NCBI GenBank assembly: GCA_028875875.1
Contig: JAGWUV010000002.1
Span: 62,001 to 126,000 of the forward strand
Source: Bacteroidota bacterium
GTDB lineage: Bacteria; Bacteroidota; Bacteroidia; Chitinophagales; Chitinophagaceae
Reading direction: 5' to 3'
DNA: 64,000 nt
The notes beneath the pieces were generated by a model. It had not been told where the DNA came from and ran no database searches. It worked only from the letters and a program-made list of their open reading frames with translations. This document shows, one piece after another, positions 7,978-64,000 of the stretch (its first letter is position 1; every line of letters begins with the position of its first letter). The position numbers and the translations under genes were made by a program.

Positions 7978-7990
7978 AAGATAATTAATA

Positions 7991-8032
7991 ATATAAATGG
8001 CCTGCTCATTATTTTGAGCAGGCCATTTATAT
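7991..8032. terminator. strong bidirectional terminator hairpin
   Basis: A perfect 18-bp stem (7991-8008 and 8015-8032, core AAATGGCCTGCTCA) encloses a 6-nt loop. It sits between the converging ends of the GH20 gene and the haloperoxidase-like gene and can fold from either strand. Confidence 0.85.
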
Positions 8033-8078
8033 TTCCAGTGATTTAAGCGTTACAAGTCTATTTTTAACGAATAAGTAT

Positions 8079-9410
8079 TTATTGTAAATGCAGTTTGTTT
8101 AATAATGCATGGCCCACACTTTTACCTAAAGTCATACCTACTCTTATACTATTATGGAAATGAATTCCACCATACAGCCTGCTGATGCCTGTTTCCTCAG
8201 AAGCCTTTACAAAAGAGGCAAAGTCTCTTGTTAATCCAGTATACGCTTCATCACTATTATCATGAAAAGCAAAGTTATCACCAAATTCGTGTGTTAGTAT
8301 TACAGCTGCAGCACTTGAAATAGTGCAATGCCCGCAAGTATATTCAGGATGTGCAGGTGTTTGTAAAATAGGATCCCAATTCTTTTCAATCACATCGTTA
8401 ATAACAGTAACAGGGCGGATAGAGTTATAAATATATTTGGTATCCCAGCAGGCAATAAAAGCATCAAGTAGTCCTATAGAAGTTAAAGCATAAGCTTCGG
8501 CACTTTTCACTTCATCTGCATTACTCTTACGACATGCAATAGTAGTAATGCCCATCCAGTGACCACCGGGTGTTATTTTCTTTGTAGCATACATAAGGTG
8601 CCCGCTATGCTCAACAATAAAGGCATTGTCATCCCAAAATTTGGCAATGGTTGTTTGTTCTTTTGTTATGTGTTTATTAATATCATACAACTCCTTTACA
8701 TCTTTAAAAAAGGCACTTGCAGTATCTGTACTAAAAGTTGGTGGAGGCCCCGGCCTGAACTGTGCAGCAGAGTCCAATGCAAATGTTTTAATCATGGCCC
8801 AATAAGGCTCCACTCCATCAGCATAATCAGGTGGTGTTGGCCTCCATTTACCAGGATCATGGCTACCCAAATATTTAGGCATGCTGCGGGTAATGGCATA
8901 ATTATCTTTATCTGCCCTTTCGAGTATTGCATTGCCAACAGCTTCTCCAAAAGCAACAGAACGTTGATAGGTTGAATCATCCATCGACTCTTTGAAAAGA
9001 GAGAAAAGAGAATCTTCATAAGACTTTAATGAATCTACTGCAAAAACCATTTTATGAGCAACAGTAAAAAAAGCTTTTGAAGACGCAAGTGTATAATTAT
9101 AAGTTTTACTGGGCTTTGGTTGTGGCATTTTTGTAAAGCCATTCATTTGTTCGGCAATGGATGGCGCATTGCTCTTTTTAAATCGTATGGCCTCATATGC
9201 GGCAAGAGATGTGTAAGCATATATCCTGCTGGCCACGGGTGGATTGAAAACATCATAAATGATAACCTGCGTTACCTGATCGAGATTCTGATGAATTACT
9301 TCTGCATCATTGATCTTGGGCTTTTTATTAAATGAAGTACAACCAATAAACATTATACTGGTTAATGTTAAAAGTAAAAACAGACGGCAAGGGGAAAGTA
9401 AATTTTTCAT
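8079..9410 (-). CDS. vanadium-haloperoxidase-like PAP2 lipoprotein (Cys variant)
   Basis: 443 residues. A lipoprotein signal peptide has its lipobox at FIGC24. The C-terminal half has the vanadate/phosphate pocket of the vanadium haloperoxidase/PAP2 superfamily: Lys325 and Arg332 in KYIYNSIRP, C359-G360-H361 in YTCGHCTIS, and Arg411 with His417 in SRLYGGIH. Spacings match the fungal chloroperoxidase pattern. The position that is normally Ser (PSGH) is Cys here. It may be a haloperoxidase or an acid phosphatase; sequence cannot decide, since both share the pocket. It is the last gene of the SusCD, ASPIC and DUF1573 run, 6 nt after the DUF1573 gene. A second family member with the normal Ser lies at the right window edge. 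Confidence 0.85.
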   Translation of the reverse strand: MKNLLSPCRLFLLLTLTSIMFIGCTSFNKKPKINDAEVIHQNLDQVTQVIIYDVFNPPVASRIYAYTSLAAYEAIRFKKSNAPSIAEQMNGFTKMPQPKPSKTYNYTLASSKAFFTVAHKMVFAVDSLKSYEDSLFSLFKESMDDSTYQRSVAFGEAVGNAILERADKDNYAITRSMPKYLGSHDPGKWRPTPPDYADGVEPYWAMIKTFALDSAAQFRPGPPPTFSTDTASAFFKDVKELYDINKHITKEQTTIAKFWDDNAFIVEHSGHLMYATKKITPGGHWMGITTIACRKSNADEVKSAEAYALTSIGLLDAFIACWDTKYIYNSIRPVTVINDVIEKNWDPILQTPAHPEYTCGHCTISSAAAVILTHEFGDNFAFHDNSDEAYTGLTRDFASFVKASEETGISRLYGGIHFHNSIRVGMTLGKSVGHALLNKLHLQ

Positions 9411-9416
9411 GTTGGG

Positions 9417-9863
9417 TTATTGCTTTATTATTCCGTAAAACTGAAGGGTATGATAGATACCATTAGAGGTATTTGATGATACACGTACTGATTTATGAAC
9501 AGTTCCAATTTGCCCCTGCGTTTTAAACACTGCTGTTAAGGTATTTTCTTCTCCCGGTTCTATCAGCTTCCTTGGGTAATCCGCAACGGTACAACCACAG
9601 TTAGGTTTTACGCCTGTGATGAATAGTGGATTTTTGCCAATATTTTTAAAAATAAATTTTATACTTACAGAATCGCCGGGTTTGATAGTACCAAAGTTTT
9701 GAATAGAATCACTCCACAACACTTCAGTATAATGTACAACATCGGCCTGTGCCAACTGAGCAGGATTGATACCGGCACTATTTTCATATGGATTCTTTTT
9801 AGTGTTATTACAAGCAACAGATAACAACATTAAAAAGAGCATTATACAAGCATTCGTTTTCAT
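9417..9863 (-). CDS. DUF1573 lipoprotein
   Basis: 148 residues. The signal peptide has a lipobox at LLSVAC18, so it is a lipoprotein. The mature part is a single beta-sandwich domain of the DUF1573 type: FGTIKPGDSVSIKFIFKN, the hallmark PNCGCTVADYP and EPGEENTLTAVF. The function of DUF1573 is unknown; the fold resembles ASH/MSP-like Ig domains. Its ATG overlaps the stop of the upstream VCBS gene (ATGA), so translational coupling is likely, and the haloperoxidase-like gene follows after 6 nt. The tight packing suggests the three lipoproteins act together at the envelope. Confidence 0.9.
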   Translation of the reverse strand: MKTNACIMLFLMLLSVACNNTKKNPYENSAGINPAQLAQADVVHYTEVLWSDSIQNFGTIKPGDSVSIKFIFKNIGKNPLFITGVKPNCGCTVADYPRKLIEPGEENTLTAVFKTQGQIGTVHKSVRVSSNTSNGIYHTLQFYGIIKQ

Positions 9864-12800
9864 TGTACTTCTATTTTTCTATCCTGGCCTTGAGTGTTAT
9901 GAACTATAATATAAGCCACTTTATTACTTAACGACACAAAACGGGCAGATTGAGATAAAAAAGAGTTACCGTAATAACATTCCTGTTTTTGTATCGCACC
10001 ATTTCTAAAATGAATCATTACATACTCGTCATTGGGTTGCAAGGGTATATTCCTGCAAAAGTTTTTTAGTTGAAATATTTTTAGCGGACCACGGTTCTGC
10101 GAAGCTGCAAGCAGGTAGTTATTATTACTGTTTCTAAACTTCACCAGCGATTTTCCATTGCCCGGAATAAAAATACCGCTTTGTAAAATTGTTTGTGGCG
10201 TAAAGTTTCCATGCCCGTCGCCTTTTAACAATAATCCATTCAATGCATCGTACCTTCCAACATTTACTTCCGTTCCGTAATCATTTCCATTAATTAGAAC
10301 ATCTAAGTTTCCGTCTCCATCATAATCATCTGCACACATCCCATTCAACATTGATAGCTGAGCTTCTTTAGGTAAAGGCATCATAGTAAATTTCCCCTTC
10401 CCATCATTTCTTAAATAAACAGAATTAAAATTATTCGCATGTAATATCAATGCATCCTGTAATTGTTCTTTAGACAATACTTTGTCCATGGTTGCTGTTG
10501 CAAATGACTGATAAGTTTGAAATTTTCTCCGCATACTTATCATCTGCCTGATAATATCATCTCTTACCTGTGCCGGATATTCTTTCTTCTCTTTACTTTC
10601 TGCTGTAGGTAGAAGGTAAAGGGAAGGAAGCGCATCAAAAACCCCATCTTTATCAAAATCTTTTGCATATACCGATACAGGATATTGATGACTAGCTTTG
10701 TAAAAAGAATTAAGGCCCAGGTTCCCGACTATATAATCGATATCTCCATCATTATCAAAATCACCTGCGGTTATAGAATTCCACCAACCGATTTCCCTTT
10801 CTGCACCTGTTTGTTCTGTGATATTTTTAAAATTACCATGATCATTTTTTAAAAAAGTAACAGGCATCCATTCTCCGGCAAGAATGAGGTCTGTCCAACC
10901 ATCATTATCAAAATCTGTGAATAAGGCATCGCATACCAACCCGATATTCTTTAATTCCGGTGCAACCTGCTCTGTAACATCAGTAAATTTTACCACTCCA
11001 TTTTTTGAATCATTTCTTAAAATAAAACTAGATACAGGCTTGGGATAATTCCATGGATCTATACGTCCGGAAACAAACAGATCAAGATCACCATCTTTAT
11101 CATAGTCAATAGCTCTTACACAAAACTTACTGGTTAAGTTTTTAGGCAAAGCCAAACTATCCTGTTTAAAATTTCCTTTCCCATCATTTATATAAAGCCT
11201 GTCCTGGTAAGGAATTGAATTGGGTGCATTGGCATATCCTCCACTTGCTACATATAAATCATTATCACCATCCCCATCCGCATCAAATAACAACATACCC
11301 ATATCTTCATTATATTTTTCTGAAAGATGGGTAGTATCGCTCATAAAGCTTTTTTGAATAAATCCTTTGTTCTTATCCTGCAGGAAAATAAATGCGGTTT
11401 TATTGAAAGCACCACCTACAATTATATCATCTAATCCGTTACCGTCAATATCTCCAACAGCCATACCAGGCCCATATTCCGATAGTTTATGAGGCAAGAG
11501 CTTCTGAATATTGAAATCGATAAAATCTCTCTGTTGATGAATGAAATGAACTTTTGCAGAATCTGTTACTTCTTTGAACAATGTATGCTTAGCAAGCAGG
11601 GGGGGCGCATCATGAGCTGCATCAGTTGCGTTTGCAAAATCCAGCTTAAACAATTGATCTGCGGGAATATGCTTTACTGTTTGTTCTTTTCCACCCGGCC
11701 ATTTTACAACAATTGAATCTATCAACTTTGTTTTTCCCAAGCCAAATAATGCCCTGTTGTCAATTGTTGTAAGGTAACCGCGGAATGGTGTGTTTTCCCA
11801 AACTTGTTTCTGCCCGTGGTTATAGTAGAGCTCGGCTAAAACACCCAGGCCATTGATATTATCCTTGTTGCCATGAAACCGAAGTTGGATATAATGACTG
11901 CTATCTTTATTCTGTTCCCTTGCATTATTTTTATAAACCAAAGCTTCATCATTGATATTATTAATGATGATATCGAGATCACCATCATTATCAAGATCAG
12001 CATAGGTTGCACCGTTTGAAAAAGTTGGTAAGGTTAACCCCCATTGCTCTGTTGCATTGGTAAAAGTAAGATCCTTGTTATTCTTATACCCATAATTATG
12101 GAGCTTAACCTGTGGTATCTGATCTAATATACTTCGCTTGGATGCAATGATGTACGCCTTTTTTCTATAGGCCATAAAATCATGATCATTTACATCTTTG
12201 GCAAATCCGTTGGTAATGATAATATCCCTGTAACCATCATTGTCAAAATCGGTTACCATAGGTGTCCAGCTCCAGTCTGTTTCAGAGATACCGGAAAAGA
12301 ATCCAATCTCACTGAATATTGGCACACCAATAGAATCATTCTGCCCAACCCTGTTACCCTGGTTAAGCTGCAACGTATTTCTTACATACTGATAATTATA
12401 ATTGTAGGCATCACTGTTCTGATAATTCTGATACTTGTTTATATTAAGATTCATTTTTTTCCTGAAGTTATCTTCAGGGTTCATATCCAATACCACTACA
12501 TCTTTTAAACCATCATTATTGATATCTTCAATATCAATACCCATTGCATTCGCAGAAGTGTGTTTGAAATAGGTTGATAGCTGGTTACTGAATGTACCAT
12601 CATGATTATTGATCCATAACAGGTCGTTGGTTACAAAATCATTCGTTACATAAATGTCTTTCCAGCCATCATTATTAATATCTACAATATTTACCGAATG
12701 CCCGTAACCTTCTGTTTGTATGCCTGCTTCTTTCGAAACATCGGTAAATACAGGATGATGGAGCTTTTCATTCCAATCGTTTCTAAATAATTTTCCAGTG

Positions 12801-13471
12801 CTGGGATTTTCACCCTCTTTCATGATGGGATGAAAGTCGTCCGGGTAGCGATGCTTATTAATTTCATTCACTACCAGATACATATCAAGGTCACCATCAT
12901 TATCATAATCGAAGAATGCAGCCATAGTAGAATGAACTGAATCATCCAGGCCATATTCATGAGCCATCTCTTTAAAATGCGGTACTTTATTTTTATCTAT
13001 TCCCTGGTTGATGTATAATAGGTTTTTCCTTTCAGAAGGATTATCTTTTAATGTACAGCATACGTACATATCCATCCAGCCATCATTATTAATATCTACA
13101 ACAGCAACGCCCCTGCACCATCTTCCATTGCCATCTACACCTGCGGCTGCGGTAACATCATCAAATTTAAAGTTGCCTTTATTCAGGTATAGTTTATTGG
13201 GTACCAAATTGCCGGTAAAATAAATATCCTGTAAGCCATCATTATTAAAATCACCTACGCCAACACCTCCACCGTTATAAACATTGGTTACATCAATGAT
13301 ATTCATTGAATCATTATCGATGATCGAATTGTTAAAATGAATGCCCGATTGAGAGGATGGAATTTGTTCAAAAAGTACTTTTTGTTTGCGGCAGGAAAAA
13401 ACAAGAGGAAGCAACAGTAAAATGTAAACTTTTTTTAAGTTGATGTACCGTGTATAGAATAATGTGATCAT
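9860..13471 (-). CDS. giant VCBS/FG-GAP repeat lipoprotein with ASPIC/UnbV domain
   Basis: 1203 residues. The N-terminus reads as a lipoprotein signal with its lipobox at LPLVFSC. At least fourteen calcium-loop repeats of the form DxDxDGxxD are spread along the chain (for example DFNNDGLQDIYF, DYDNDGDLDMYL, DADGDGDNDLYV), indicating two beta-propeller-like FG-GAP/VCBS modules. An ASPIC/UnbV domain lies between them (about residues 540-615, with PFRGYLTTIDNRALFGLG and VVKWPGGKEQ). The protein resembles CRTAC1-like surface proteins, usually assigned to adhesion or glycan binding. The ATG at 13471 is supported by the signal peptide. It follows SusD after a terminator-like hairpin at 13518-13550 and is translationally coupled to the DUF1573 gene. 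Confidence 0.9.
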   Translation of the reverse strand: MITLFYTRYINLKKVYILLLLPLVFSCRKQKVLFEQIPSSQSGIHFNNSIIDNDSMNIIDVTNVYNGGGVGVGDFNNDGLQDIYFTGNLVPNKLYLNKGNFKFDDVTAAAGVDGNGRWCRGVAVVDINNDGWMDMYVCCTLKDNPSERKNLLYINQGIDKNKVPHFKEMAHEYGLDDSVHSTMAAFFDYDNDGDLDMYLVVNEINKHRYPDDFHPIMKEGENPSTGKLFRNDWNEKLHHPVFTDVSKEAGIQTEGYGHSVNIVDINNDGWKDIYVTNDFVTNDLLWINNHDGTFSNQLSTYFKHTSANAMGIDIEDINNDGLKDVVVLDMNPEDNFRKKMNLNINKYQNYQNSDAYNYNYQYVRNTLQLNQGNRVGQNDSIGVPIFSEIGFFSGISETDWSWTPMVTDFDNDGYRDIIITNGFAKDVNDHDFMAYRKKAYIIASKRSILDQIPQVKLHNYGYKNNKDLTFTNATEQWGLTLPTFSNGATYADLDNDGDLDIIINNINDEALVYKNNAREQNKDSSHYIQLRFHGNKDNINGLGVLAELYYNHGQKQVWENTPFRGYLTTIDNRALFGLGKTKLIDSIVVKWPGGKEQTVKHIPADQLFKLDFANATDAAHDAPPLLAKHTLFKEVTDSAKVHFIHQQRDFIDFNIQKLLPHKLSEYGPGMAVGDIDGNGLDDIIVGGAFNKTAFIFLQDKNKGFIQKSFMSDTTHLSEKYNEDMGMLLFDADGDGDNDLYVASGGYANAPNSIPYQDRLYINDGKGNFKQDSLALPKNLTSKFCVRAIDYDKDGDLDLFVSGRIDPWNYPKPVSSFILRNDSKNGVVKFTDVTEQVAPELKNIGLVCDALFTDFDNDGWTDLILAGEWMPVTFLKNDHGNFKNITEQTGAEREIGWWNSITAGDFDNDGDIDYIVGNLGLNSFYKASHQYPVSVYAKDFDKDGVFDALPSLYLLPTAESKEKKEYPAQVRDDIIRQMISMRRKFQTYQSFATATMDKVLSKEQLQDALILHANNFNSVYLRNDGKGKFTMMPLPKEAQLSMLNGMCADDYDGDGNLDVLINGNDYGTEVNVGRYDALNGLLLKGDGHGNFTPQTILQSGIFIPGNGKSLVKFRNSNNNYLLAASQNRGPLKIFQLKNFCRNIPLQPNDEYVMIHFRNGAIQKQECYYGNSFLSQSARFVSLSNKVAYIIVHNTQGQDRKIEVQ

Positions 13472-13517
13472 AAAAGCAATCTGGAACTTTACTCAATTTA
13501 TTGAAATATCTGTTCAC

Positions 13518-13550
13518 GAAAAAAGAGGCAGAGTGAAAACTCCACCTCTT
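13518..13550 (-). terminator. terminator or attenuator after susD
   Basis: Read on the minus strand, arms of 12 nt (AAGAGGTGGAGT and ACTCTGCCTCTT) pair fully if two G-U wobbles are allowed, around a 4-nt loop, followed by six Ts. On the plus strand the wobbles become mismatches, so it is directional. It lies between susD and the VCBS gene and could lower downstream expression relative to SusCD. Confidence 0.7.
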
Positions 13551-13594
13551 CAATTTAGAAACACTTGTTCTTGCTTGTCCGAACGGTAAGAATC

Positions 13595-15403
13595 TTAATA
13601 GCCGGGATTCTGTTTCAAAACAACCTTACCGCCAGAATTAAGTATATCAATCTGACTTTGAGGAATAGGGAATAACTCAGATTTACCTTTAATGAACTTA
13701 GCACCAACACTTACCAATGATACTTTCGCAATTCTATCTGTAGCCAGGTAATTATTCAATACAACATCTGCAATACCCCAACGTACAAGGTCGAAGAAGC
13801 GATGCCCTTCCATACCCAACTCCATGTATCTTTCTCTTTGAATAGCAGCTAAAGCAGTTGCTTTATCTGTGAAAGAACCTGTAGGATAAGCTGCTACATT
13901 ATAATTATCTGCTGGTGTTGTTTGCGGAGAATATTGAGATTTAGTAGCATCATAAGTTGCGCCACCTGCGTATACCCAACCTGTAGGATCTGCAGCCCTT
14001 GTTCTTACCATATTAACATACGTTAAAGCCTGGCTCAATGAGCCTACCTGCACTTCAGTTTCAGCAGCTAGCAATAACAAATCGGCATAACGCATGAGAT
14101 TGTAGTTGTTTGCTGTTAACTCTGTATTGGCCCAGTAGTTTTCAGTGCTTGTATAGGTACCTTTCTGGCTTTGTGCGTACGTGTTTTTCTTTGGACTAAA
14201 ATGGCCATCATTTCCCGGATCACGAACCCAAGCATCACCAGGATGCGGACCCCAATCGTAATAAGGAATACCCGGTCTTCCCATTGTCCAGTCGATCCTC
14301 GGATCCAAAGAGCCTGTATAAGGTGAGGTTGTGGCACTTACATCATTTCCTGAGTTGTAGTTAGCTACTGGCAAACCGTTAGCATCTGTTTTGTATGCAT
14401 TTGCAAGGCTCTGCGATGGATTGAAGAAGCCGCAACATGCACCCGGACCACCATTGTATGGAAAGTTTAAGTTATCTCCCCAGTTACCATTAGAAGCTCC
14501 TGCAGCAGTTGCAGAGCCATCATTTACAGACATCTGAACAGCAAATACAGATTCGGCACTGTTTTTAGTAGCCGGATTAAAATTCTGAGCATAAGGTACC
14601 AGTGCATATTTTAAACCGCCTGCTGTTTTTCCGCTGGCAATCAATTGATCGAATAAAGGTTTGGCCTGACTGTATTTTCCTTCAAACATATATACTTTAG
14701 CCAGGAAGGCCATTGCAGCCCATTTGTTAGCTCTTCCGATCTGGGATTGTGTTTCGGGCAGATTAGCAGCAGCAAAAGCAAAATCGGCTTCTATCTTCGG
14801 CCAAATATTTACGTAAGCACCGGATCCATCGATATTAGAAAGGGTAGATGGAGCCGTAGTATCAGAAACCGTTTCATCAACAAACGGAACATTACCGAAT
14901 ACTTTCTTCAATTCAAAGTGATAATGTGCTCTTAAAAATCTTGCTTCAGCCGCATATTCATTAGCATTTCCAGTTGGAACATCTTTAGCAATTTTCAACA
15001 TCCGCAACACATCATTGGCTCTTTGAGCACCCTCATAACAAGTAGCCCATTTCTGTGCTACATAGCCATTGGCAGCATTTGCTGTGTATGTTTCAAGACC
15101 AAGTATATCACCCTGGTCTGAAGGAGTTGAACCTTTATAAGCATCATCTGCAGCTACGCTTCCGTAAGTCCAGTTATCACATGCAGAACCCCATCCGCTG
15201 TTCACGTTTCCACCTTCTCCATCCAATAATGCATAGGCGCCGATAAGCAATCCCTGAACACCATTCTCATTTGCCAGGATGGTTTGATTGAGTGTTCCAA
15301 CGGGAGGTTTGTCTAAAAAACCTTGTTTACAAGAAGAATAAATAACAGCAAGGGCTACAATGATCGCCGGTATGATTATTTTATTTGAATGTATTTTCTT
15401 CAT
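13595..15403 (-). CDS. SusD/RagB outer-membrane nutrient-binding lipoprotein
   Basis: About 602 residues. The ATG at 15403 starts a basic N-terminus, a hydrophobic stretch and the lipobox VIYSSC, followed by KQGFLDKPP, the typical SusD mature start. The helical TPR-like scaffold is visible in GAQRANDVLRML, EARFLRAHYHFELKKVFG and AAMAFLAKVYMFEGKYSQAKPLF. The C-terminal RagB hallmarks are IQRERYMELGMEGHRFFDLVRWG and LFPIPQSQID. The open frame continues to 15436, but that would place 11 residues before the signal peptide. It forms the surface lid of the SusC/SusD transporter encoded 38 nt upstream. The ligand cannot be read from sequence; the nearby beta-mannan operon makes mannan oligosaccharide a candidate, but a role with the ASPIC and haloperoxidase genes is equally possible. 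Confidence 0.95.
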   Translation of the reverse strand: MKKIHSNKIIIPAIIVALAVIYSSCKQGFLDKPPVGTLNQTILANENGVQGLLIGAYALLDGEGGNVNSGWGSACDNWTYGSVAADDAYKGSTPSDQGDILGLETYTANAANGYVAQKWATCYEGAQRANDVLRMLKIAKDVPTGNANEYAAEARFLRAHYHFELKKVFGNVPFVDETVSDTTAPSTLSNIDGSGAYVNIWPKIEADFAFAAANLPETQSQIGRANKWAAMAFLAKVYMFEGKYSQAKPLFDQLIASGKTAGGLKYALVPYAQNFNPATKNSAESVFAVQMSVNDGSATAAGASNGNWGDNLNFPYNGGPGACCGFFNPSQSLANAYKTDANGLPVANYNSGNDVSATTSPYTGSLDPRIDWTMGRPGIPYYDWGPHPGDAWVRDPGNDGHFSPKKNTYAQSQKGTYTSTENYWANTELTANNYNLMRYADLLLLAAETEVQVGSLSQALTYVNMVRTRAADPTGWVYAGGATYDATKSQYSPQTTPADNYNVAAYPTGSFTDKATALAAIQRERYMELGMEGHRFFDLVRWGIADVVLNNYLATDRIAKVSLVSVGAKFIKGKSELFPIPQSQIDILNSGGKVVLKQNPGY

Positions 15404-15441
15404 ATAATTTTTTATTTCTTGGTTATTAAGGAACATTAGAT

Positions 15442-18400
15442 TTAGAAACCTACATTCACGCCAATATTAAAGTTCTTTTGATTGGCCGGGTAGTTTCCAA
15501 AATCGATACCGAAATTACTGTTGTTGTTAAGGTCTGATCCCTGTAACTCAGGATCTAATCCTGTGTACTTAGTAATAGTAAAGAGGTTAGCTACCTGTAA
15601 GTAAACCCTTAAGCGGTCTATGCCGGCCTTCCTCAGATTTGCTGCTGGAATGGTATAGCCTAATATTAAAGACTTACATCTTAAATAACTTCCTTTTTCT
15701 ATATAGTAAGAGTTAAATACTGTTGTATTACTGAAGTTGGCTGATTTTTCAAGTATGGGTACTGTGGCATTAGGATTATTAGGTGTCCATGAATTATACA
15801 CCGCATTTTTACTTACGTTACCACCAAATACTTGCGGAAAGTCAGTCCAGTATTTCACATAGTTCACAACATCATTTCCTGCAACACCGTATAAGAACAT
15901 TGAGAAATCGAAGTTTTTATAAGATGCTGCTATATTCAAGCCATAAGAAAACTTGGGGTTAGGATTGCCAATGAAAGTTCTGTCTGCATCAGAAATCTTT
16001 CCATCACCATTCATATCAGCATATTTAAACCTTCCGGGAGCTGCACCATCCTGCGTTGGAGATTTAGCAACATCAGATGCATCTCTAAACAAGCCCAGCA
16101 CTTTATATCCATAGAATGCACCGATGGCTTGCCCGGGTTGTAATCTTGAAAACGCACCAATACGTGAGGAGCCAGCACTATATTCATCTATGTATTTATA
16201 ACCGGTAGGTAAGCTCATCACTTTATTGTTATAAGAAGTGAATGTACCTGTCAGGTCAAGTTTAAAGTCGCGTTTAATCGTAGCATGGTAAGTTGCAGCG
16301 ATATCAATACCGGTGTTTTGTACATCACCAAGGTTAATGAATGGCTGGTTAGCTCCTCCATTAAAGTTACCGATCGCAGATACCTTTTGGAATAACAATC
16401 CGCTGATCGCTTTCTTATACCATTCGATAGAGAGGTCTAACTTATCCTTAAAGATCGTTGCATCGATACCTATATTGGTAATGATATCAGATTCCCATGT
16501 AGTACTGGTATTTCCCAGTTGATTGTTGAAAAATCCCTGAGCAGAACTGTTGCTGCTTCCAGTAATTGGATAATAAGATAATCCTGCACCTGAAGCATAA
16601 AGCGTATAAGAGTTAGTGGGGTTAATGTTATTTAAAGAACCTAATTTACCCCAGCCACCACGAAGTTTCAACTGGTTAATCCATGTTATATTCTTCATGA
16701 AATTCTCATTAGAAATACGCCAGCCTGCTGTTAAGGAAGGGAAGGTTCCATATTGATGACCATCAGCGAATACTGAGGCACCATCACGGCGAAGCGTAAA
16801 GGCGAATAAATACTTATCATCATAACTATAATCTAACCTTCCAAATAAAGAAGAGATGGCCAGCTGATAAGGTGTACCACCGCTATTGCTTTGTGTACCC
16901 GGATCACCTGTATTTAAAATCCAGTAGTTAGGATTGGTAGAGTAATAATTACTTCTACCTGCTGCAATACCTCTTTGATAAACATTCTTAGCTTCAGAAC
17001 CTATTAAAGCTTTTACAGAGTGTTTTCCAAACACATTGGAATAATTCACGGTGTTTGTCCACAACCACAAACTATTGTATCCACCACCTTCTGTAAATGA
17101 GTTAGGGTTGGTATTACCTTCCGCATTTTCATACGCTGTGTAATTAAAGTAGTAGTAGTAGTAGTTATCGAATGATCCGCCAAAACTTGTTCTTGCCGTA
17201 AAGTGCTTTAAGAAATCTACTTCAGCAAAAACATTTCCGTTTACCTGCCAGTCGTTACCCCTGTTATTGGCAGTTCTTTCCATATTAGCCACAGGGTTTT
17301 GAGAGTTACTCAAATAGGCAGACTTGGTACCTGCATAATTACCCATGATATCATGCACGGGAATAATGGGCGGTTCCCTATAGCTCATTGATATCGCATT
17401 ACCCTCATTCTGGTTAGTAATTTGCGGGTTTTGCTTATATACTACGTAAGCATTTTCACCAATGCGTATATGGTCTTTTACATTGAATGTTGTATTAAGC
17501 CTGGCTGTGTACCTTTTCAAATAACTATTAATAAGGGTACCTTCCTGGTCTAAGTATCCTACAGAAAACAAGTAAGATGATTTATCGCCACCGCCACTTG
17601 CTGTAACAGTATGGCTTTGAATAATGGCAGGTTTGAAAATTTCATGAAACCAGTCTGTTCCTGCTTTATTGGCTTTGGTGATTTGGTTGGAATTGATATT
17701 GTATGCAGAAGGATCTGTACCGGGATCTCCTGCCTTTGCTGCCGTTGGTGTGATGTAATCTGGAATAGTAGGAACATCACCCTGACCAAACTGCTGGTTC
17801 CTGGAACCTGCCGGAACACCAGAGTTAATTTCCATCTGCCTTATTGCAGTAGCATACTCCATTGTATTAGCCAGGTTAAAACCTTTTGAAAGAGGCTGTT
17901 GCGTACCAACATAAGCATCATAAGTTATTTTTGATTTTCCCGGTTTTCCTTTTTTAGTAGTAACGATAATTACACCATTGGCACCCTGCACACCATAGAT
18001 GGCAGCAGCACCGGCATCTTTTAATACTTGAATAGATTCAATATCATTGGCATTAAGATCATGTAAGCTGCCCTGTACACCATCAATTATTACAAGAGGA
18101 GTAGTATTACCGGGAGAAGTAATACCCCTAATTCTTAAATTACTTCCTCCACCAGGTTGGCCAGAGTTAATTACTGTAACACCAGAAGCTTGACCTTGTA
18201 AAGCAGCTTCTGCAGTTCCTGAAGGAATTGACTTCATGTTACTAACATTAACCACGGCAACAGAGCCGGTGATATCTTTCTTACGCTGCGAAGTATAACC
18301 GGTAACCAGTACAGCATCTAAAGCAGAGTTCATTTCGGATAAGCGAACCGTTATCATTTCAGATCCGGATGGAGCCGCCATTTCTACAGGTTCATATCCA

Positions 18401-18642
18401 ACAAATGAAAATACCAGTACACTGTTTTGGTTCGGAACCTTAATGCTGAATAAACCTTCAGGATTGGTAAGTGCTCCTGTTTTACTACCCTTGATCTGAA
18501 CAGCTGCTGAAGCAATGGGCTGGCCGGTAACTTTATTAATTACTTTACCTGTTATTGTCTTTTGGGCAATTAGACTTAAACTGGAAAAAAGTAGGAAAGT
18601 AACAAGCATAATACTCCTTACGGAGTTGCATGTGCATGACAT
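15442..18642 (-). CDS. SusC/RagA TonB-linked outer-membrane transporter
   Basis: About 1066 residues. The signal peptide ends in SLSLIAQ. A carboxypeptidase-D-regulatory-like domain follows (TITGKVINKVTGQPIASAAV), then the TonB plug with NLRIRGI and the SusC signature LKDAGAAAIYGVQGANGVIIVTTKKG. The beta barrel ends in an aromatic residue (NVGVGF), as required for outer-membrane insertion. The longest frame starts with TTG at 18648; the ATG at 18642 is preferred. It imports a substrate across the outer membrane using TonB energy, together with SusD. No anti-sigma factor is adjacent; the AraC gene 420 nt upstream is the nearest regulator. Confidence 0.96.
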   Translation of the reverse strand: MSCTCNSVRSIMLVTFLLFSSLSLIAQKTITGKVINKVTGQPIASAAVQIKGSKTGALTNPEGLFSIKVPNQNSVLVFSFVGYEPVEMAAPSGSEMITVRLSEMNSALDAVLVTGYTSQRKKDITGSVAVVNVSNMKSIPSGTAEAALQGQASGVTVINSGQPGGGSNLRIRGITSPGNTTPLVIIDGVQGSLHDLNANDIESIQVLKDAGAAAIYGVQGANGVIIVTTKKGKPGKSKITYDAYVGTQQPLSKGFNLANTMEYATAIRQMEINSGVPAGSRNQQFGQGDVPTIPDYITPTAAKAGDPGTDPSAYNINSNQITKANKAGTDWFHEIFKPAIIQSHTVTASGGGDKSSYLFSVGYLDQEGTLINSYLKRYTARLNTTFNVKDHIRIGENAYVVYKQNPQITNQNEGNAISMSYREPPIIPVHDIMGNYAGTKSAYLSNSQNPVANMERTANNRGNDWQVNGNVFAEVDFLKHFTARTSFGGSFDNYYYYYFNYTAYENAEGNTNPNSFTEGGGYNSLWLWTNTVNYSNVFGKHSVKALIGSEAKNVYQRGIAAGRSNYYSTNPNYWILNTGDPGTQSNSGGTPYQLAISSLFGRLDYSYDDKYLFAFTLRRDGASVFADGHQYGTFPSLTAGWRISNENFMKNITWINQLKLRGGWGKLGSLNNINPTNSYTLYASGAGLSYYPITGSSNSSAQGFFNNQLGNTSTTWESDIITNIGIDATIFKDKLDLSIEWYKKAISGLLFQKVSAIGNFNGGANQPFINLGDVQNTGIDIAATYHATIKRDFKLDLTGTFTSYNNKVMSLPTGYKYIDEYSAGSSRIGAFSRLQPGQAIGAFYGYKVLGLFRDASDVAKSPTQDGAAPGRFKYADMNGDGKISDADRTFIGNPNPKFSYGLNIAASYKNFDFSMFLYGVAGNDVVNYVKYWTDFPQVFGGNVSKNAVYNSWTPNNPNATVPILEKSANFSNTTVFNSYYIEKGSYLRCKSLILGYTIPAANLRKAGIDRLRVYLQVANLFTITKYTGLDPELQGSDLNNNSNFGIDFGNYPANQKNFNIGVNVGF

Positions 18643-19062: not shown

Positions 19063-19944
19063 TTAGAAGAATAACTTGTTAACAGATGTATATCCTTCTT
19101 TAAATTCTTTCGGTGTACAACCTTTTTTCTGTTTAAATATTCTATTGAAATTAGAAATATTATTAAATCCGCATTCATACGCAATTTCTGCGATTGACTT
19201 TTGCGTATCGATCAGTAAGCGGGTAACATGCCCTATTCTAACATCTATCAAATATTCTGAAAAAGTTATCCCTGTAGTTCGTTTAAAGAAACGGCTGAAC
19301 GAAGTTTCTGCCATATTCATCTGCTTTGCCGCTTCTAAAAGTGTTATATCTCTTTCAAAATTTTTGGTTACATAATCTAATACAACATCAAGCCTGTTGT
19401 TTTGGCTGAAGGATCGGCTTGTTTTATTAAATGTATCGCTGGATAATAACCTGTAATTATCTGAAACAGACAATTCATGTAAAACAAACATAAACTCCAG
19501 TACTGAAGCAAAGCCTTTGCTTTCATTTATTCTGTTCAGGTTTTTGGCAACTTTCTTTGCAGTTTCTTTATCAAATAAAATACCCTGAGCCGATAGTGCC
19601 AGCATATTCCTAATAAGGCTTAGCTGATTTTTTTGCAACAACTTTTCATCAAAAAGATCCCTGTGAAATTGTACAGTAACCTCTTTTATCTCTTCGCTCT
19701 TACAATCCCCGTCGAACCAGCCATGCATAAGCCCTGGCCCTAGTAAAACCAGATCGTAATCATCAATCAGTTCAACACTGTTCCCAACAATGCGTTTGGC
19801 CCCTTTGCCGTTATAAATGAAGTTGAGTTCAAGTTCATCGTGAAAGTGCAAAGGAAAAGTAAAATGGCTTTTGCTTCTGGTTGCAATAGTGAAGCAATCG
19901 GATGGAATCAAAGGTGTGATTTCCTTTAAAATGTTGGTGCTCAT
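19063..19944 (-). CDS. AraC-family transcriptional regulator
   Basis: About 293 residues. An N-terminal cupin-like sensing domain (FPLHFHDELELNFIYNGKG, GPGLMHGWFD) is followed by the AraC HTH pair in the last 100 residues: DITLLEAAKQMNMAETSFSR as the first helix-turn-helix and SIAEIAYECGFNNISNFNRI as the second, ending in the family signature KQKKGCTPKEFKEGY. The frame opens with TTG at 19971; ATGs exist at 19953 and 19944, and 19944 is chosen by similarity of length. The gene lies between SusCD (same strand) and the divergent mannan operon, so it is the likely activator of one or both. The cupin suggests direct sugar sensing. Confidence 0.92.
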   Translation of the reverse strand: MSTNILKEITPLIPSDCFTIATRSKSHFTFPLHFHDELELNFIYNGKGAKRIVGNSVELIDDYDLVLLGPGLMHGWFDGDCKSEEIKEVTVQFHRDLFDEKLLQKNQLSLIRNMLALSAQGILFDKETAKKVAKNLNRINESKGFASVLEFMFVLHELSVSDNYRLLSSDTFNKTSRSFSQNNRLDVVLDYVTKNFERDITLLEAAKQMNMAETSFSRFFKRTTGITFSEYLIDVRIGHVTRLLIDTQKSIAEIAYECGFNNISNFNRIFKQKKGCTPKEFKEGYTSVNKLFF

Positions 19945-20028
19945 TGAGATCATGCAGTTAGTATTAGGCAATCAAAATTGTTAGTTTAAGGAAAAAAGCC
20001 TGGGTTACATTATAAACTAAACAATTTA

Positions 20029-20164: not shown

Positions 20165-21328
20165 ATGCTTAAATTATCTGTCTTATTTAAGGTAGCATTC
20201 TTTCTTCTTATCACTTTATTTACAGGAAAAGGGACGAGTCAAACTTTTCAAACTGCAGATAGAAAAGCCATCAATAAAGCACAGCTGTTAGCACAACATT
20301 TATCAGCATTAAGCGGCCACGGAATTTTATTTGGCCACCAAGACGATCTGGCCTATGGTATGGGATGGGCCTATGAAGAAGGGAAAAGTGATGTAAAGAA
20401 AATTACAGGAGATTACCCGGCTTTGTACGGTTTTGACCTGGGGCATCTTGAATTAAATAGCACTTACAATTTAGATAGCGTTCCTTTTAGAAAAATAAGA
20501 GAATACATTAAACGTGTGTACGGAAAAGGTGGAGTGATTACTCTTTCATGGCATGCTAACAACCCTTTTAACAAACGATCTGCATGGGATATTGATAGCT
20601 CAACAGTTGCTTCTATATTACCCAATGGCAGCAATCATTATCTGTTCAGAGAATGGCTTCACACAATTGCTATTTTTCTCAAAAGCTTAAAAACGGGCTC
20701 CGGTGAAGTTATTCCGGTTCTTTTCAGACCTTATCATGAATGTACCGGTAATTGGTTTTGGTGGGGTAAAAGTGCTTGCACAGACGAACAGTTCAAAGAA
20801 CTATGGAAGTTCACCTTCCGGTTTTTAACACAAACGGAACAAGTACATAACCTCCTTTATGTATTCAATACAGCAGATTTTAGTACAGCAGAAGATTTTG
20901 AAAGAAGATATCCCGGCGATGCCTATGTGGATGTTGTAAGTTTTGATGCTTATCAGAACAGTGCTTTGCCAGATGCTAAAAAAGCATTTATAGCTACCAC
21001 ACAACAAAAACTGTTATTACTTACCTCCTTTGCAAAAGAGCATAAAAAACTTTCCGCTATTGCAGAGATTGGCTTTGAAAACATTCCGGATACTAACTGG
21101 TGGACCGGCACGTTTTATTCTATCATAAAAGATTATTCCATCAACTATATTCTAACCTGGAGAAACGGCGGATTAAAAAAAGCTACCGGAAAATGGCAGT
21201 TTCAGCCATCGTACTCCTACTTCACTCCCACAAAAGAAAATGCTTCAGCTACTGATTTCATTCGTTTTAAAAACATAGAAAAAATAATTTTCCAACAAAA
21301 ACTAACAGCACTAAAAATTTACCAATAA
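20165..21328 (+). CDS. GH26 endo-beta-1,4-mannanase
   Basis: 387 residues. A signal peptide ends near GTSQ, so the enzyme is periplasmic or surface exposed. The GH26 clan-A barrel is shown by GILFGHQDDLAYGMGW and GVITLSWHANNPFN, by the acid/base Glu192 in FRPYHECTGNWFWWG and by the nucleophile Glu301 in AIAEIGFEN, near the tryptophans of TNWWTGTF. A small single-domain GH26 next to a GH130 and an epimerase matches the mannobiose-forming mannanase (ManA) of the Bacteroides fragilis mannan pathway. It is the first gene of a four-gene operon; the symporter ATG follows 29 nt after its stop. No carbohydrate-binding module is present. Confidence 0.94.
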   Translation: MLKLSVLFKVAFFLLITLFTGKGTSQTFQTADRKAINKAQLLAQHLSALSGHGILFGHQDDLAYGMGWAYEEGKSDVKKITGDYPALYGFDLGHLELNSTYNLDSVPFRKIREYIKRVYGKGGVITLSWHANNPFNKRSAWDIDSSTVASILPNGSNHYLFREWLHTIAIFLKSLKTGSGEVIPVLFRPYHECTGNWFWWGKSACTDEQFKELWKFTFRFLTQTEQVHNLLYVFNTADFSTAEDFERRYPGDAYVDVVSFDAYQNSALPDAKKAFIATTQQKLLLLTSFAKEHKKLSAIAEIGFENIPDTNWWTGTFYSIIKDYSINYILTWRNGGLKKATGKWQFQPSYSYFTPTKENASATDFIRFKNIEKIIFQQKLTALKIYQ

Positions 21329-21357
21329 GTACTGTTGCTTGCTTCTGAAATACAGAT

Positions 21358-23181
21358 ATGAAATTGAATGCTTTAGATCTTGTCATACTAACAGCTTACC
21401 TTCTATCCATGCTTTTTATCGGCTGGTTTTTGAGAAAAAAAGCCAGGGAGAATAAAGAGAATTATTTATTGGGTGGAAAGTCGTTACCATGGTACTTATT
21501 AGGATTAAGCGATGCCTCAGACATGTTTGATATAAGCGGCACTATGTGGATGGTTACGCTTTGCTTTGTATATGGAATGAAAAGTATTTGGATACCCTGG
21601 TTATGGCCCGTATTCAACCAGGTTATTTTAATGATGTTTCTTTCTAAATGGCTTCGCCGTTCTAATGCAACAACAGGAGCCGAATGGCTGGCAACACGTT
21701 TTGGTACGGAGGGAAAATCAATTAAAGCTTCTCATAATATTGTGGTGGTATTTGCCTTGTTAAGCTGTCTTGGTTTTTTAACCTATGGATTTATTGGGCT
21801 AGGCAAATTCACGGAAATTTTTATTCCCTGGAATATTGTTCAGCCTTATCTTCCTTTTACGGTGGCTCCTCAATATGTAGCACATTTCTACGGGATAGTA
21901 TTTACACTCTTCGCTATGTTCTATTCTATTTTAGGTGGCATGCATAGTATTGTTTTAGGTGATTTGATAAAGTATATAATAATGACCATCGCCTGCATTA
22001 GTATTGCAGTAATAGCCATGCATCATTTACATGGCAAAACCCTTAATGTACCAAACGGATGGTATTCTCCACTTTTTGACTGGAAATTAAACCTGGATTG
22101 GAAGAACATCATACCCGCAGTAGAAGAAAAAATTCAGGACGATGGATTCAGTTTATTCGGATTGTTTTTTATGATGATGCTTTTTAAAGGTGTATTTGCA
22201 AGCCTCGCAGGGCCGGCACCTAATTATGACATGCAAAAGATCCTTTCTACCCGTTCACCTAAAGAAGCTTCGAAAATGAGCGGGTTTGTTTCCATCATCT
22301 TATTGCCAATAAGGTATAGCATGATCATCGGTTTAACCGTGCTGGCACTTTTACACTTTAATACACTTAACCTTCAATCAACCGGCGGCACCGATTTTGA
22401 AAAGATCCTTCCCGAAACGATCAATCGGTTTTTGCCACATGGTATTTTAGGCTTGGTACTTACCGGTCTTTTAGGCTCCTTTATGGGAACCTTTGCAGGA
22501 ACGTTAAATGCGGCACAGGCTTACATTGTAAACGATATTTATCTTAAGTATATTAATCCCGGAGCATCTAATAAAAAAATCATCTCATTAAATTACCTGG
22601 CTGGAATATTAGTAGTAACCATAGGCATTATCCTGGGCTTTTTTGCCAGGAACGTTAATACCGTTTTACAATGGATCGTTGGTGCATTATACGGAGGATA
22701 CATTGCTGCGAACATTCTGAAATGGTACTGGTGGCGTTTCAATGCCAATGGGTTTTTCTGGGGTATGATCAGTGGTATTATTGCTGCACTTATATTTCCA
22801 TATCTATTTTCAGGATTACCATTATACAACTGGCCGCTGTTATTTTTAATATCACTGGCAGGAAGCATTATTGGCACATACACAGCCCCTCCCACAAACA
22901 AAGATGTACTTATAAAATTCTACGCAACAGTTAAGCCATGGGGATTTTGGAAACCCATACATAATGAAGTACTACTTGCAAACCCATCATTTAATGGTAA
23001 TAAAAGATTTGGATTAGACATGTTCAATACCGTGATCGGTATTATAGCACAACTATGTTTAACCATCATGCCGATGTACTGGGTACTGGGTTTACAAAAA
23101 CCATTTATAATTAACGCAGCCGTTTTAGCAATCATTATATGGATATTGTATAAAACATGGTGGAAAAAATTAGAAAATTAA
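21358..23181 (+). CDS. sodium:solute symporter (SSS family), probable mannobiose importer
   Basis: 607 residues with about 13-14 hydrophobic segments and no cleaved signal peptide. The SSS family is indicated by the N-terminal LLGGKSLPWYLLGLSDASD segment, by FYSILGGMHSIVLGDLIKY and by the SLAGPAPNYDMQKILS segment. The segment GTFAGTLNAAQAYIVNDIYLKYI is also typical. The family imports sugars, amino acids or ions with sodium. Its place between GH26 and GH130, as in the B. fragilis mannan operon, points to uptake of mannobiose across the inner membrane. The start ATG is unambiguous. The substrate is inferred from context. Confidence 0.92.
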   Translation: MKLNALDLVILTAYLLSMLFIGWFLRKKARENKENYLLGGKSLPWYLLGLSDASDMFDISGTMWMVTLCFVYGMKSIWIPWLWPVFNQVILMMFLSKWLRRSNATTGAEWLATRFGTEGKSIKASHNIVVVFALLSCLGFLTYGFIGLGKFTEIFIPWNIVQPYLPFTVAPQYVAHFYGIVFTLFAMFYSILGGMHSIVLGDLIKYIIMTIACISIAVIAMHHLHGKTLNVPNGWYSPLFDWKLNLDWKNIIPAVEEKIQDDGFSLFGLFFMMMLFKGVFASLAGPAPNYDMQKILSTRSPKEASKMSGFVSIILLPIRYSMIIGLTVLALLHFNTLNLQSTGGTDFEKILPETINRFLPHGILGLVLTGLLGSFMGTFAGTLNAAQAYIVNDIYLKYINPGASNKKIISLNYLAGILVVTIGIILGFFARNVNTVLQWIVGALYGGYIAANILKWYWWRFNANGFFWGMISGIIAALIFPYLFSGLPLYNWPLLFLISLAGSIIGTYTAPPTNKDVLIKFYATVKPWGFWKPIHNEVLLANPSFNGNKRFGLDMFNTVIGIIAQLCLTIMPMYWVLGLQKPFIINAAVLAIIIWILYKTWWKKLEN

Positions 23182-23196
23182 TTATAATTATTTTTA

Positions 23197-24387
23197 ATGG
23201 AAAAGATTTTTCAGCAAAGACTATTTGCACTCAACAATGAATACAATCATCTGATCAATAAACCTAATCACAAAGTTTTACCGGGCAACGGTTTATTTGA
23301 AAGATATAAAAACCCCGTGTTAACATCGGCTCATACTCCTTTGTTCTGGCGGTACGATTTAAACGAACAAAGTAATCCATTCCTGATGGAACGTTTTGGC
23401 ATCAATGCGGTATTTAATGCAGGGGCCATTAAATACAATCATAAATATATCTTGTGTGCAAGAGTTGAAGGATTAGATAGGAAATCATTTTTTGCTTTAG
23501 CCGAAAGTGAGAATGGTATTGATGGATTTAAATTCAGTGACTTTCCACTTATCATTCCTGAAACTGATATTCCCGATACGAATGTATATGATATGCGTTT
23601 GGTACAACACGAAGACGGTTGGATCTATGGTTTATTTTGCACAGAAAGAAGAGATAATTCGGCACATGAGGCAGATCAGTCCGCAGCTATTGCCCAATGT
23701 GGAATTGTGCGTACAAAAGATTTACAACAATGGGAGCGTTTACCGGATCTTGTTACCGCTTCTCCCCAACAGCGAAATGTTGTTTTGCATCCTGAATTTG
23801 TTGATGGCCATTATGCGTTTTATACAAGGCCGCAAGATAGCTTTATTGAGGCTGGAAAGGGCGGCGGTATAGGTTTCGGGCTAAGTAAACACATTAATCC
23901 TGCAATTGTAAAAGATGAGGTAATAATCGATCATAAAAAATATCATACCGTTTATGAATCAAAAAATGGGCTTGGTCCCGCTCCTATTAAAACAGCATAT
24001 GGCTGGTTACATCTTGCGCATGGGGTAAGAAATACTGCTGCCGGATTACGTTATGTACTGTATATTTTTATGACAGACTTACATGATCTTACAAAAGTTA
24101 TATACAAGCCGGCCGGTTATTTTTTAGCTCCCGATGGTGAAGAACGAGTAGGTGATGTTTCAAATGTGGTTTTCAGCAATGGCTGGATATTGGATAATGA
24201 CGGTACTGTATTCATTTACTACGCTTCATCAGATACAAGAATGCACGTTGCTACAACTACTATAGAACGGTTGCTTGATTATACCATGCATACAAGACAG
24301 GATAAATTTACTTCCGCAGAATCTGTTCAGCAAATACATCAACTGATCAGGCAAAACAAGTCTATCGAAGAAAAGGTAACAGCATGA
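23197..24387 (+). CDS. GH130 4-O-beta-D-mannosyl-D-glucose phosphorylase
   Basis: 396 residues, cytoplasmic (no signal). The five-bladed propeller family GH130 is shown by the catalytic-Asp segment [16 protein letters not shown], by FCTERRD, by the phosphate-contact region [20 protein letters not shown] and by [21 protein letters not shown]. Length and motifs fit subfamily 1, which phosphorolyses mannosyl-beta-1,4-glucose to alpha-mannose-1-phosphate and glucose. It starts 15 nt after the symporter stop and its stop overlaps the next gene's ATG (ATGA). With the epimerase it makes up the cytosolic branch of mannan catabolism. Confidence is high for the family and good for the specificity, given the neighbours. 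Confidence 0.94.
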
Positions 24388-25604
24388 ATGCTATAGAGCT
24401 ATTACAAAGCTTACGCTCAACGCTTGAGGTTGAACTGGAAAGTATATTGACTTTTTGGATCGACCATATGATTGATGATAAACATCAGGGATTTATTGGT
24501 AAACTCGATCATGAAAATAAAAGATACGAAGATGCACCTAAAGGTGTTGTATTAAATGCGAGAATACTATGGGCTTTTTCTGCAGCATTCCATCTCACCA
24601 AAAAACCGCCGTATTTAGAAACTGCAAAAAGAGCATATCATTTTTTGAATGACTTTTTCTACGATCCCCTAAATGGCGGCTATTACTGGACTGTTAGCAG
24701 CACCGGAATTCCATTAGACACAAAAAAACAAATCTATGCACAGGCATTTGTACTGTATGCCTTTAGTGAGTTTTATAAAATTACATTAGACAATGAAGTA
24801 CTGGAACGGGCCAGTGCATTGTTCCATCTCATAGAAACCAAAAGCTTTGATAAAAAGCAAAGTGGCTATGCGGAAGCCTTTTCTGCAGATTGGAATTTAT
24901 TAACTGATCTAAGGTTAAGTGAAAAAGATAACAACGATATTAAAACTACCAATACACACCTGCATATTATAGAAGCCTATTCTAACTTATACAAGGTGTA
25001 TAAACACAGTTTACTGAAAGAACAAATCATCAATCTATTAAATGATTTCCGAAACCACATTATTCATCCTTCCACTCACCACCTACAACTATTCTTTGAT
25101 GAGCAATGGAATGTTACTTCCGGTTTAATTTCTTATGGGCATGATATTGAAGCGGCATGGCTGTTGCATAAAGCAGCGCTATGCGTTGATGATGCTGAAA
25201 GCATTCGCTGGTATAGTGAAAACGCCTGCGCTATGACGGAAGCAGCTGCAAAAGGACTGGATGAGAATGACGGAGGTTTATGGTATGAATATTTGCCGGA
25301 GAAGAATAAACTGATCAAAGAAAAACATTGGTGGCCGCAGGCAGAAGCTATGATAGGTTTTTTCAATCAATGGCAAATCACTAAAAAACCTAAGCCGTTG
25401 GAACAATGTTTTAATAGCTGGAATTTTATTAAAAATCATATTTTAGATAAAACCGGTGGCGAATGGGTTTGGGGAGTTTATGAAGATTATTCCATCATGT
25501 ATCACGAGGATAAAGGAGGGCTATGGAAATGCCCCTACCATAATTCCCGTGCATGTATTGAAATCATTCAAAGAATAAAAGAAGTAAACGGTAACTTACA
25601 TTAA
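24384..25604 (+). CDS. AGE-family mannobiose/cellobiose 2-epimerase
   Basis: 406 residues, cytoplasmic, with an (alpha/alpha)6-barrel pattern. Family residues are visible: [15 protein letters not shown], the catalytic-His segment [25 protein letters not shown] and the C-terminal [21 protein letters not shown]. The family converts the reducing-end sugar of beta-1,4-disaccharides between glucose and mannose. With GH130 beside it, it should turn mannobiose into mannosyl-glucose. The ATG overlaps the GH130 stop, so translation is coupled. A GlcNAc 2-epimerase role is less likely because of the neighbours. Confidence 0.92.
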
Positions 25605-63584: not shown

Positions 63585-64000
63585 TTATTCTGCGCCATCT
63601 GTTTTAGCTCTTGCTACAGCATAATTGCCAACACTTGCCCCAACCAGCAAACCCACATTACAATCGCTTCTATAATGTAAGCCACCTACCAGCCGTGATA
63701 AAGAGGCTTCATTTGCCATAGCCGTATAACTACCGGCTTTTTCAGGAATTATATGCCCTAAAATAGTTGCAGCAGCACCACTGAATGTAGAATGACCTGA
63801 AATGTAGGAAGGGAAATTAGGTACGCCGGTTAATGTTTTAATATCTGAGTCCAATTGTGTTGGCCTGGCATTGTAATAAAAATATTTTGTATCCCAGCAA
63901 ACGATAGCGGCATCCATGAGTGACATATTCAGTAATGCCATATTCCTTGCCCATCGTACTTCGCTAAAATTCTTCGGTATAAAATCTTCTGAAGCAATAG
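63585..64000 (-). CDS. vanadium-haloperoxidase-like PAP2 protein (5' part missing)
   Basis: About 138 C-terminal residues are visible; the N-terminus is beyond the right edge. The pocket is complete: Lys and Arg in KYFYYNARP (spacing 7), SGH in SYISGHSTFSGAAATIL, and Arg and His in SRLVGGLHYRSD (spacing 6). This is the vanadium haloperoxidase/PAP2 phosphatase signature with the normal Ser, unlike the Cys version at 8079-9410. Whether it halogenates or dephosphorylates cannot be told. The internal ATG at 63941 is not the start: the frame continues to the edge without a stop. Confidence 0.85.
   Translation of the reverse strand, partial: IASEDFIPKNFSEVRWARNMALLNMSLMDAAIVCWDTKYFYYNARPTQLDSDIKTLTGVPNFPSYISGHSTFSGAAATILGHIIPEKAGSYTAMANEASLSRLVGGLHYRSDCNVGLLVGASVGNYAVARAKTDGAE

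Follow-up and report, generated by a model that had tools for sequence, protein, structure and literature searches.

The window analysed here is a 64,000-nucleotide stretch of a Chitinophagaceae genome. It contains five consecutive minus-strand genes that an earlier note had named from the sequence, and open reading frames combined with Pfam and NCBIfam searches confirm that all five are present and were correctly identified. The first encodes a SusC/RagA TonB-dependent outer-membrane transporter (15442..18642; NCBIfam TIGR04056, E 6e-249, 829 bits), for which the proposed start codon, the ATG at 18642, is also correct. It is followed after 38 nt by the gene for a SusD-family lipoprotein (13595..15403; PF07980, E 3e-43; PF14322, E 4e-21; lipobox IYSSC), this spacing being counted to the likely SusD start at ATG 15403 in a frame that opens at 15436. 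Next comes a 1203-aa lipoprotein with VCBS/FG-GAP repeats and an UnbV_ASPIC domain (9860..13471; PF13517, PF07593), hereafter the VCBS protein, then a DUF1573 lipoprotein with a conserved CGC motif, an optional accessory (9417..9863; PF07610, E 4e-25), and finally a vanadium-haloperoxidase lipoprotein of the Zobellia iodoperoxidase type (8079..9410; PAP2 domain PF01569, E 4e-9; phmmer match to 4CIT). The last three genes are packed exactly as described before: the stop codon of the VCBS gene and the start codon of the DUF1573 gene share a 4-nt overlap (ATGA, 9863-9860), and 6 nt separate the DUF1573 stop codon from the haloperoxidase ATG. Lipobox-like signals are found in all three frames, as well as in SusD. 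Upstream of SusC lies an AraC-type gene (19063..19971, minus strand; PF12833, E 2e-24), a candidate regulator that is also found in the closest relative (locus L034). At the other end, a 19-bp perfect inverted repeat (7990..8033, not assigned to a strand) is a probable terminator between the haloperoxidase and a converging GH20 gene.

The locus resembles polysaccharide utilisation loci in its SusC-SusD tandem, its adjoining AraC regulator and the presence of glycoside hydrolases outside the run. It differs from them in what the run holds: as stated in the earlier note, there is no glycosidase among the five genes, and the downstream genes instead encode a CRTAC1-like propeller, DUF1573 and the haloperoxidase. 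No glycan-degrading enzyme was found in the same operon; GH20 converges on it, 101 nt past the haloperoxidase, and GH26 and GH130 diverge from it. The latter belong to a plus-strand set (20165-25604) of a GH26, a sodium symporter, a GH130-like phosphorylase and a cellobiose 2-epimerase, which is divergent from the AraC gene, is kept in L034 and is a probable beta-mannan pathway. A YdjC-type deacetylase gene lies between the haloperoxidase and GH20 in L034 (L034:15669-16679, plus strand) and is missing from the window. The nearby hydrolase families vary from locus to locus (GH20, GH92, GH30, GH3, GH2), and the module is therefore not tied to a single glycan.

The 123-nt gap between the SusD and VCBS genes contains a feature absent from the earlier note, a terminator-like hairpin with a U-tract (13519..13551, minus strand; MFE -20.2 kcal/mol and z -2.6 for the surrounding 71 nt). 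An equivalent hairpin with a T-run is present in 34/40 SusD-VCBS gaps, compared with none in shuffled sequences and none in 36 SusC-SusD gaps. We rejected the idea that it is specific to this cassette, as terminator-like hairpins occur 3' of SusD in 43/53 co-directional cases, whichever gene comes next, making this a general SusD 3' feature. The hairpin may lower downstream expression or end the transcript, and since it follows SusD in so many loci, full co-transcription of the five genes appears doubtful. A separate promoter for the lipoprotein genes was also rejected, as the search for one gave no signal above chance.

The earlier note had proposed an enzyme with a vanadate or phosphate pocket, and this can now be narrowed. 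The haloperoxidase matches the crystallised vanadium iodoperoxidase of Zobellia galactanivorans (4CIT, 4USZ) over its full length in a phmmer search of PDB sequences (E 1e-134), with 46.9% identity to the 4CIT sequence over 439 aa. Its AlphaFold2 model (pLDDT 93.5) likewise finds 4cit/4usz as the best Foldseek matches (TM 0.91), followed by other haloperoxidases. Six of the seven vanadate-pocket residues (K, R, G-H, R, H) are kept, while the pocket Ser is replaced by Cys359. Within a 39-member clade of related enzymes, K325, R332, H361, R411 and H417 are invariant and G360 is found in 38/39, whereas the Ser position varies (S in 29, A in 8, C in 2). By sequence and predicted fold, the enzyme belongs with the Zobellia iodoperoxidase, with which it also shares a lipobox, and apart from the phosphatases, to which its kinship is distant; this family assignment is well supported. 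The two enzymes are nevertheless not equivalent: the window enzyme is only about 47% identical, falls in a separate clade, carries the Ser-to-Cys change and a Tyr-to-Phe change at 264, and sits in a SusCD-VCBS context. The flavobacterial relatives of the Zobellia enzyme (62-80% identity) mostly follow tandem VCBS genes. Zobellia enzymes of this kind are presented as iodide-specific in PDB titles and in papers that cite Fournier et al. 2014, the reference for the Zobellia galactanivorans vanadium iodoperoxidase.

The same genome has a second haloperoxidase cluster, which occupies 63585-63998 of the window (minus strand) and continues in G000:C54:125621-129566 (L033). Its order is GH65, a 187-aa protein, a haloperoxidase, a 320-aa protein and a haloperoxidase of a second type (516 aa). 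Three tandem UnbV genes lie nearby, and similar GH65-haloperoxidase clusters are found in relatives. Beside a flavobacterial haloperoxidase locus, we also observed an HD plus Pycsar-effector transmembrane (PycTM) protein (L115:17030-18220, plus strand), and related loci contain similar-sized genes.

Conservation of the neighbourhood in relatives, a check suggested in the earlier note, was assessed in 80 loci and 40 stretches picked by haloperoxidase similarity, regardless of their neighbours. A VCBS/UnbV gene lies directly upstream on the same strand in 58 of 122 haloperoxidase genes, with a median gap of 8 nt. The full SusC-SusD-VCBS-haloperoxidase order was widely kept, recurring in about 30 loci (a few genomes contributing twice, e.g. 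L036/L077 and L041/L098) across Chitinophagaceae, Mucilaginibacter and Dyadobacter. A co-occurrence test gave a Fisher p of 4e-13, although this statistic ignores phylogeny. In a tree of 121 sequences, the window enzyme falls in the 39-row clade (SH-aLRT 98), whose members are mostly SusCD-VCBS-linked, and the Zobellia enzyme lies in another clade. Because the gene order recurs in many related bacteria, this is a real and conserved association of known parts and not a set of chance neighbours; co-function, as the earlier note rightly indicated, goes a step further.

Distances between the proteins of 28 syntenic loci were most strongly correlated within two pairs (Mantel r=0.96 for SusC-SusD and 0.90 for haloperoxidase-VCBS, against 0.62-0.74 for the cross-pairs); linkage alone could raise every one of these correlations, and the lower cross-pair values serve as an internal comparison. 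In three loci (L037, L081, L084), SusCD is of another type, with about 28-30% identity, but the VCBS protein and haloperoxidase are still 56-62% identical. From the Mantel values and these swaps, we read the locus as two coupled pairs, SusC-SusD and a tightly paired propeller and enzyme, of which the SusCD pair would be exchangeable.

The VCBS protein itself is predicted to be a CRTAC1-like double beta-propeller. Its model (pLDDT 92.7) has CRTAC1 (9etn) as the best Foldseek match (E 7.5e-26, TMt 0.70), a partial resemblance, and the two share the combination of an FG-GAP propeller and an UnbV_ASPIC domain that characterises the CRTAC1/ASPIC-UnbV family. Unlike CRTAC1, the window protein is a bacterial lipoprotein of about twice the length, with a second propeller. 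Its description in the earlier note as a multivalent Ca-loop binder is plausible on the model, the binding being putative.

We also approached the cluster from the VCBS side, searching 101 relatives and comparing the coordinates of VCBS and haloperoxidase matches by eye. This search found 26 orthologues at about 50% identity or more, of which 12 adjoin a haloperoxidase and 14 do not (one of these at a contig end). The loci without haloperoxidase consist of SusC-SusD-VCBS alone, or continue with DUF1573 and a CxxCH FG-GAP protein, as at L163:4909-6903 (minus strand), where the VCBS gene is followed by a DUF1573 and a CxxCH FG-GAP lipoprotein gene. VCBS-haloperoxidase pairs without SusCD also exist. 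A VCBS tree built on haloperoxidase-locus rows had hinted at a propeller dedicated to the haloperoxidase, an idea we rejected after this reciprocal search. Since more than half of the close orthologues lack the enzyme, the propeller does not need it, and, judged by gene content, SusC-SusD-VCBS forms the core, to which the haloperoxidase is often added as an optional module.

DUF1573 was likewise rejected as a core member, as among haloperoxidase-linked loci it is found only in five (the window, L034, L038, L074 and L075), with CGC in 5/5. Of the proposed five-gene cassette, then, the SusCD-VCBS-haloperoxidase order stands, whereas DUF1573 is rare and the haloperoxidase is often missing beside close VCBS orthologues. 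The window protein has the PF07610 domain with a Cys pair and scores below the cut-off for NCBIfam OS_HP2 (64 of 100 bits). Selenoproteins with a DUF1573 domain and a UGC motif are listed in reviews (PMC9312934; PMC13188914); the window protein shares their PF07610 domain but is a Cys form, with CGC where UGC is reported. These selenoprotein members suggest a putative redox role for DUF1573. Other redox-type proteins occur near the relatives' clusters, including an FG-GAP-repeat lipoprotein of about 500-540 aa with a heme-type CxxCH motif in 22/22 examples, and, beside some clusters, redoxin-like proteins, two GMC oxidoreductases and planctomycete-type cytochromes.

In other Bacteroidota, acidic residues after the lipidated Cys mark lipoproteins for surface export. 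Such residues follow soon after the Cys in 88% of SusD proteins, 64% of haloperoxidases, 60% of VCBS proteins and 14% of DUF1573 proteins. In the window, SusD has one, while the VCBS, DUF1573 and haloperoxidase lipoproteins have none (0/3). Their display at the surface, as the earlier note envisaged, is therefore not supported, and the three may instead face the periplasm.

In the explanation we favour, with a probability of roughly 55%, SusCD loci carry an attached envelope redox module whose enzyme is a halide-dependent peroxidase. SusCD would import a glycan-like ligand, as its family suggests, and downstream of it the lipid-anchored CRTAC1-like double propeller and the lipid-anchored vanadium haloperoxidase would act as a matched pair, perhaps in a physical complex in which the propeller probably scaffolds the haloperoxidase or presents its substrate. 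For the haloperoxidase, we infer H2O2-dependent oxidation of iodide and/or bromide to a hypohalous species as the most likely reaction. Any physiological role would then be the removal of H2O2 at the envelope, or the oxidation or halogenation of nearby organic matter. The CGC DUF1573 protein and, in relatives, the CxxCH lipoprotein, redoxins and GMC oxidoreductases would be optional redox partners. This reading is supported by the iodoperoxidase homology and fold, the pocket residues, the VCBS adjacency, the clade, the Mantel results, the SusCD swaps and the redox neighbours. Against it stand the Ser-to-Cys change, the VCBS loci without haloperoxidase, the lack of acidic signals, the hairpin, and the five-gene run encoding no source of H2O2.

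The enzyme matches the PAP2 superfamily, in which phosphatases and haloperoxidases share pocket residues, and an apo-chloroperoxidase phosphate intermediate (3bb0) is among its structure matches. Together with the changes of the pocket Ser to Cys or Ala, this could fit an acid-phosphatase-like hydrolase whose substrates would be organic phosphate or phosphorylated glycans and whose product SusCD would take up. We find this quite unlikely, as sequence and fold group the enzyme with the iodoperoxidase over the full length, and its similarity to single-domain acid phosphatases covers just a portion of it (query-normalised TM ~0.35). Redox proteins also recur among the neighbours, where no genes for phosphate uptake turned up. 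Less likely still is a haloperoxidase homologue that has lost halide oxidation and performs another reaction, such as the ketol-type rearrangement of keto-sugars that GMC oxidoreductases would have produced. The next fold match after the iodoperoxidase, NapH3 (8cxl), is a haloperoxidase homologue that carries out an alpha-hydroxyketone rearrangement, the pocket Ser is variable, and GMC oxidoreductases adjoin one cluster (L094) together with GH30 and GH3. However, identity to NapH3 is 16%, compared with 46-47% to the iodoperoxidase, and the window genes examined include no GMC oxidoreductase.

It could also be that the genes are independent, a SusCD locus having come by chance to lie beside a general envelope lipoprotein operon. 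The hairpin between SusD and VCBS would suit such an arrangement, as would the occurrence both of VCBS-haloperoxidase pairs without SusCD and of VCBS genes without haloperoxidase. Given that the order is kept in many genera, and given the Mantel results, this too seems improbable, and we retain the halide-dependent peroxidase as the preferred reading. More broadly, one might imagine a Bacteroidota-wide class of SusCD loci with an oxidative module, comprising a CRTAC1-like double-propeller scaffold, a peroxidase acting on halides and a varying set of redox lipoproteins that can stand in for one another (CGC DUF1573, heme-type FG-GAP protein), that performs hypohalous modification or detoxification at the envelope during polymer feeding. 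This generalisation is speculative, and we would not expect it to hold.

A literature search joining haloperoxidase with SusD, VCBS or polysaccharide utilisation loci found no description of this cluster, which is apparently an undescribed combination of known parts. Haloperoxidases of the Zobellia type are abundant in Bacteroidota, yet to our knowledge the physiological role of such bacterial enzymes is unclear. The conserved pairing with a specific propeller and SusCD transporters gives the haloperoxidase a testable partner and context, and offers a candidate setting for UnbV_ASPIC and DUF1573, two families of uncertain function. In soil, freshwater and marine bacteria, halide and peroxide chemistry could in this way be linked to feeding on polymers.
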